Made by a program: the position numbers and the translations under genes. Shown here in pieces: positions 19,030 through 19,416 of a DNA stretch of 29,211 nt. Source of the stretch: Physocladia obscura (Eukaryota > Chytridiomycota > Chytridiomycetes > Chytridiales > Chytriomycetaceae); the NCBI GenBank assembly GCA_027596945.1, contig JADGJH010000123.1, positions 1 to 29,211 on the forward strand, read 5' to 3'. Numbering within the stretch: position 1 is the first letter of the stretch; each line of letters begins with the position of its first letter. A model generated the notes under the pieces. The model was not told the origin of the DNA, did no database searches, and worked only from the letters and a program-made list of their open reading frames with translations.

Positions 19030-19416
19030 ATGCAAAGAAAAGTTCAAAAAGATGACGATGACTGGGTCACAGATCCCGATTTCGTGAACGACGTTTCGGA
19101 AAAGGATCAGCGGTGGGGAAATCAAAAAACCTTTAAAGCGCTCGAAGAAAAACCGGAAGTTGTGGACTTGAAAGGTTTGATTGAACTCACAACCGCATCA
19201 ACCAATAATTTGAGTATTGATACTGTCAGATCTTCGAAACCAAGTTGTTACTTCGCACAACACGAAGGCTTTGGAATCAGTTGGCGACACCCGGAGGAAA
19301 GAATATCAAACACCAGTCACAAAATAGGTTTGCTTTAATTTACCATGAATTACTGAAATCTTAATATTGAATTTCCTCCAGGGGCTCATAGTTCAGGTTC
19401 GAAAGGCTGTATATAA
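19030..19416 (+). CDS. Short cortactin-like protein (N-terminal acidic Arp2/3-binding motif only)
   Basis: The first ATG (19030) opens a protein whose residues 8-29 (DDDDWVTDPDFVNDVSEKDQ, then RWG) closely match the N-terminal acidic region of cortactin/HS1. That region's DDW motif binds and activates the Arp2/3 complex. A VDLKGL segment follows where cortactin has its INIHKLRE stretch. The actin-binding 37-residue repeats (GFGGKFGV type) and the SH3 domain are absent. Exons 19030-19327 and 19382-19416 (54-bp GTTTGC-AG intron) give about 110 residues ending SSGSKGCI. Without splicing, the frame stops at 19338. BING4 begins its stop codon 16 bp away on the other strand, so no room remains for the repeats. 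It could be a genuine mini-protein or a truncated gene; expression is unproven. Confidence 0.65.

Follow-up and report, generated by a model that had tools for sequence, protein, structure and literature searches.

The window analysed here is a stretch of 29,211 nucleotides from the chytrid fungus Physocladia obscura (Chytridiales; contig JADGJH010000123.1, one contig of the 21.8-Mb assembly GCA_027596945.1). On its + strand, from position 19030, lies a small gene whose product resembles the N-terminal acidic (NtA) region of animal cortactin, the region that binds Arp2/3. We think it quite likely that the gene is genuine and conserved and encodes an NtA standing alone, and that the protein clamps the actin branch junction via activated Arp3 and aids the release of the CA segment of WASP-family proteins; binding, branch stabilisation and synergy with WASP-family proteins are carried over from animal cortactin. 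A sequence-only reading of the window had proposed a "fungal mini-cortactin", which gains support from the occurrence of the same domain in at least 13 named chytrid species.

The gene itself has to be read differently than proposed. The frame that bears the DDW motif opens with the ATG at 19030, and the gene corresponds to the GenBank protein HK100_001074, of 80 aa. We tested GT and GC donors in 19150-19259 together with AG acceptors up to 19299, with start and stop held fixed, and the only intron that reproduces the deposited protein is a predicted 55-bp GT-AG intron at 19175-19229, which leads to a TAG stop at 19325-19327. The sequence-only reading overlooked this intron and continued in another frame, which produced a gene of 110 residues; the 54-bp intron that it proposed (19328-19381) begins right after the true stop. 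We reject the 110-aa model: the deposited model has 80 aa, and the tail of the 110-aa model matches none of 13 homologues (best E 1.3), while the spliced tail of the 80-aa model matches 5 of the 13 at E < 1e-6 (the set comprises 12 named chytrid proteins and one metagenome protein, and the E-values are scaled to these 13). Exon 1 (19030-19174) carries the start codon, the acidic DDW segment, the conserved block up to RWGNQKT and the first residues of a predicted helix. Exon 2 (19230-19327) carries the remaining helix (LRNQVVTSHN), the tail RRKEYQTPVTK, which is the conserved one, and the stop.

As for the motif, the claim of near identity to cortactin over about 20 residues holds, with 19 of 21 residues identical to cortactin residues 20-40 in the sequence of PDB entry 8p94, the reference for the residue comparisons that follow. 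With the correct intron, the likeness exceeds those 20 residues and reaches the NtA helix (26 of 47 Physocladia residues are identical over cortactin residues 20-66). The 110-aa model alone matches the PDB cortactin chain 8tah_H at E 1e-8, and a profile of five chytrid proteins matches PDB 8tah at E 3.6e-16, aligning over cortactin residues 19-70 and so into the helix. The residues kept among the named chytrid proteins are many: D25, P26, F28, V29, N30, E34, Q37, R38 and G40 in 13 of 13, the equivalents of W22 and D21 in 12 of 13, D27 in 11 and D20 in 10. The exception at W22 and D21 is Chytriomyces sp. MP71, whose odd N-terminus may be a prediction error. The equivalents of L58, R59 and V62 are present in all 12 chytrid proteins long enough to reach that far. 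Judged by sequence, the homology to NtA is beyond chance.

How widespread is this domain? Three protein searches retrieved 14 chytrid proteins from at least 13 named species, distributed over three orders and two genera of unplaced order. The Chytridiales contribute Physocladia, Chytriomyces hyalinus (two models), Chytriomyces sp. MP71, Obelidium, Entophlyctis and Chytridiales sp. JEL 0842; the Spizellomycetales, Fimicolochytrium, Geranomyces and Powellomyces; the Rhizophydiales, Globomyces and Gorgonomyces; and the unplaced genera are Blyttiomyces and Quaeritorhiza. One of the searches gave 439 matches among 1065 candidates, from which the best 120 were listed and 40 proteins read, and further fungal members are possible. 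Short NtA proteins (61-131 aa) are found in 11 of the 13 species, the Quaeritorhiza model being partial and the Entophlyctis model carrying a Jupiter-like tail. Two of the chytrid members (P0060 and P0067) are named "Hematopoietic lineage cell-specific protein" in their source records, so the likeness to cortactin and HS1 had already been caught by annotation.

The presence of the domain in at least 13 chytrid species disfavours a single truncated gene. That the Physocladia gene is a truncation, a chance motif or a contaminant has in its favour the shortness of the gene and the AT-rich stretch that it adjoins; we regard this explanation as very improbable given the three orders in which the domain is found, the strength of the profile match, and a tree in which the chytrid proteins are separated from animal and unnamed NtA sequences. 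In that tree, 13 chytrid-type rows (12 named proteins, and one metagenome protein placed by likeness; two further rows, P0091 and P0105, were left out) split from 19 animal or unnamed rows with support 99/99. The three Spizellomycetales group together (94/72), as do the Chytridiales with Blyttiomyces (97/93), and the two Rhizophydiales remain separate. From these groupings, recent transfer out of a sampled lineage looks unlikely. An old transfer would be compatible with the tree, which is unrooted and rests on a short NtA alignment of 88 columns.

Two gene models in the family deserve separate mention. In Entophlyctis sp. JEL0112, the NtA is followed by the Jupiter-like tail in one model of 289 aa. 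If the NtA-Jupiter fusion is real, it could connect branched actin with microtubules; alternatively, the gene prediction may have merged two genes. A Jupiter-like sequence sought in the Physocladia genome gave no strong match (best E 0.52). Two genes have probably been run together in the 471-aa Chytriomyces model, since its C-terminal end equals the 83-aa protein.

The sequence-only reading had found the actin-binding repeats and the SH3 domain to be absent, and our searches agree. Pfam at E up to 1 reports no family in the 80-aa protein, SH3 included. An SH3 domain was also sought in the other chytrid proteins: Pfam gives no family in HK100_001074 and two others (P0002 and P0004), and the Pfam column is empty for the remaining short ones. 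A hidden Markov model (HMM) of the repeat, built from the repeats of the same proteins that we fetched, finds no repeat in the Physocladia protein or across the window, where it returns five chance-level matches (best E 2.2); at E 1e-3 it detects HS1 repeats in none of the 14 chytrid proteins, compared with 61 of all 144 fetched proteins. Searches of the Physocladia genome turned up no cortactin repeats (PF02218) either, and as they were run without a positive control we do not infer absence from them. It had also been argued that repeats cannot lie downstream, since the next gene ends 16 bp away. The spacing is 105 bp, measured from the stop of the NtA gene to that of a convergent WD-repeat gene (19433-19435), and the argument still stands. 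Nor does the protein follow the WASP-family layout of C-terminal V (WH2), C and A segments: its acidic segment is N-terminal, and there is no Pfam match (short WH2 motifs can escape Pfam). Lacking repeats and SH3, the chytrid protein does not qualify as a cortactin by its domain content; we describe it as a stand-alone homologue of the NtA, one that probably works like the NtA part of cortactin.

Structures of the animal proteins place NtA residues 21-79 against Arp3; W22 fills a pocket and the helix 55-76 runs in a cleft toward the daughter filament (PMC11102864), while in the inactive Arp2/3 complex only NtA residues 20-29 are visible (8TAH; PMC10613254). Codons 10-19 of the Physocladia gene (19057-19086) are the counterpart of cortactin D20-V29, the stretch reported as bound in PMC10613254. 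In animals the NtA has a preference for activated Arp3, shields branches and acts as a co-activator together with WASP-family proteins (PMC11102864, PMC3762189, PMC10613254). By analogy, the chytrid NtA would prefer activated Arp3 and hold the branch junction together, and it would compete with the CA helix of WASP-family proteins and so help CA to leave; standing alone, it would have no grip on a long stretch of the filament. Its most likely role would then be Arp3 binding with branch-junction stabilisation, WASP-family release, or both. In the earlier description of the protein as an "Arp2/3 activator module", "activator" probably puts the emphasis in the wrong place, considering how animal NtA behaves.

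Quantitatively, animal NtA alone protects branches less well than full-length cortactin (PMC11102864), and its synergy with GST-VCA is half-maximal at 11 uM, 110-fold above full-length, with equal potency at saturation (PMC3762189). Because of this weaker protection, and synergy only at high concentration, a chytrid NtA-only protein would presumably have to be present in large amounts or be enriched locally. On the side of the partner, genes for Arp3 and Arp2 are found in the Physocladia genome, and in the Arp3 pocket 8 of 10 residues are identical, with R329 replaced conservatively by K and R230 by M.

Several observations weigh against a working NtA clamp in Physocladia. The conserved pocket is to be expected regardless, because WASP-family tails use the same Arp3 site. 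The "cortactin loop" region (155-164) of Arp3 has two fewer residues in Physocladia. ARPC2, ARPC3 and ARPC4 went undetected in the genome, probably through weak seeding; the sensitivity of the queries was uncertain, and we do not infer absence. In the protein, E23 of the DWE motif is V, and the second half of the NtA helix is poorly conserved and shorter in chytrids, the first half matching by both sequence and prediction. The AlphaFold2 model of the 80-aa protein shows little beyond a short helix at 24-29 and a helix at 47-64, and its confidence is low (mean predicted local distance difference test score, pLDDT, 63.7; predicted template modelling score 0.28). The second helix, which is split by the intron (codons 47-64, 19168-19276), is the counterpart of part of the cortactin NtA helix I55-T76, and the ten-residue blocks that span it have pLDDT of 72, 86 and 64. 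A fold search with this model returned nothing. For comparison, in the paper on 8p94 the longer helix is reported as the only part of the cortactin N-terminus of which AlphaFold was confident (PMC11102864). Finally, the MWK start of animal cortactin, present in 8 of the 13 chytrid species (in two of them behind a longer annotated start), occurs in none of the five Chytriomycetaceae, Physocladia included (one of the five is the odd MP71 model), and an upstream MWK exon, sought by an ATGTGGAAR-like pattern on the + strand of 17001-19200, was not found. The animal construct Cort18-76, which lacks residues 1-17, loses most co-activation yet keeps binding (PMC10613254). With the MWK part missing as in Cort18-76, we would expect branch stabilisation from the Physocladia protein rather than strong co-activation.

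The same facts can be turned into an Arpin-like brake, in which a short NtA would occupy Arp3 and block the CA of WASP-family proteins without stabilising the branch. NtA and CA share their Arp3 site (PMC10613254, PMC11102864), the N-terminal stretch on which animal NtA depends for co-activation is missing in Physocladia, and a decay of polymerisation is mentioned at higher Cort1-76 with monomeric WCA (PMC10613254). A pure competitor sits poorly with the retention in chytrids of L58, R59 and V62, residues of the helix that lies on activated Arp3, and we consider the brake improbable.

Where, then, did a chytrid NtA come from? The earlier reading offered an ancestral opisthokont remnant as one answer, and that part is plausible. 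The remnant could be a reduced cortactin, the NtA having been followed by one or more repeats in the opisthokont ancestor and everything past the start of repeat 1 having been lost in the chytrid line, with the mechanism unchanged. We find the case for this evenly poised. A tyrosine in the tail aligns with Tyr84 of the first actin-binding repeat in all 11 chytrid proteins that reach it; in Physocladia it would be Tyr74 (19304-19306), a possible relic of repeat 1. In some chytrid proteins the tails SYGVGK or SYGAK align with GYGGK, into the start of the repeat, and in that comparison the Physocladia protein itself aligns only to residue 65. The chytrid tails end shortly after the aligned tyrosine, and for that reason we lean to repeat loss, which the conserved tyrosine somewhat favours. 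The relic, on the other hand, amounts to a handful of residues and is alignment-dependent.

A Blastocladiella expressed sequence tag (EST) listed as "cortactin" at 97 bits (PMC1550239 Table 1) may also point, weakly, to an ancestor with repeats. A single-sequence NtA search against PDB cortactin yields 34-39 bits, below that score. The EST is nonetheless a weak argument because NtA-only chytrid proteins score comparably against profiles, 41-77 and up to 103 bits, and bit scores differ between programs. A non-exhaustive search for proteins of 192-612 aa, in which a candidate must share several words, returned 23 matches at E up to 10 from 26 scored candidates; the two fungal ones have no repeats, and the other 21 all carry PF02218.

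The opposite history, possible and to our minds rather less probable, is that NtA alone is the old form, with repeats and SH3 added in the holozoan line. It would account for all 14 retrieved chytrid proteins being repeat-free, and it fits surveys that date cortactin to Holozoa (PMC4824007) or, after a search of five fungi including a chytrid, to the ancestor of choanoflagellates and animals (PMC2824662); the tyrosine, the SYGVGK/SYGAK tails and the Blastocladiella EST all count against it. Tentatively, the ancestral opisthokont NtA may have acted as a minimal clamp at the branch junction, reaching over Arp3 and no farther than the first actin subunit of the daughter filament; cortactin would have arisen from it later, in holozoans, by gaining filament-binding repeats and SH3.

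In the literature searched, whose coverage of chytrid actin work is incomplete, we saw no account of an NtA-only protein from a fungus, and the only mention of a fungal cortactin that we came across is the 2006 table that includes the Blastocladiella EST (PMC1550239). A conserved chytrid NtA suggests that the Arp3-gripping part predates the split of fungi and animals, and that the domain may work by itself, without repeats and SH3. Does Arp3 binding alone matter in cells, or is filament binding essential? A natural, nearly NtA-only protein lets one ask this question. A cellular test is feasible because chytrids crawl with branched actin, retaining regulators lost in yeasts (PMC12050087), and transformation is possible in Spizellomyces punctatus (PMC7213984).

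Upstream of the gene, 15001-19000 is AT-rich (GC 0.32-0.36), and its ORFs (open reading frames), judged from the ORF list only, include no clear gene. Downstream, the 3' part of the WD-repeat gene occupies 19433-20125 on the - strand; BING4 is the provisional label that the sequence-only reading gave it. The ORF at 20546-21184 (-) has weak Pfam beta-propeller matches, all under the curated cut-offs. Farther away, Pfam identifies a 2-oxoacid dehydrogenase acyltransferase (3870-4457, -), a class-V aminotransferase (7135-7683, +), which we take to be possibly a kynureninase, and Spt5 (8632-9321, +), of which the ORFs up to 11867 resemble a continuation. An Rfam search gave no match.

Compared with known systems, the chytrid protein is closest in content to the NtA of cortactin (CTTN; residues 1-84), with which it shares the DDW segment, the TDPDFVNDVSEK(E/D)QRWG block and, in the first half of the predicted helix, L58, R59 and V62. 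The chytrid proteins differ from cortactin in lacking the 37-residue actin-binding repeats and the SH3 domain, and Physocladia and its family differ further in having no MWK start, with V for E23 in Physocladia. HS1 (HCLS1), the haematopoietic paralogue of cortactin, likewise has the NtA, but adds 3.5 repeats (PMC11102864) and an SH3, neither of which the chytrid proteins have. The CA of WASP-family proteins and the acidic tail of Arpin also present an acidic segment with a tryptophan to the same Arp3 pocket (PMC10613254), as the chytrid protein would by its sequence; there, however, the acidic domain is C-terminal and binds with opposite polarity (PMC10613254), whereas in the chytrid protein it is N-terminal.
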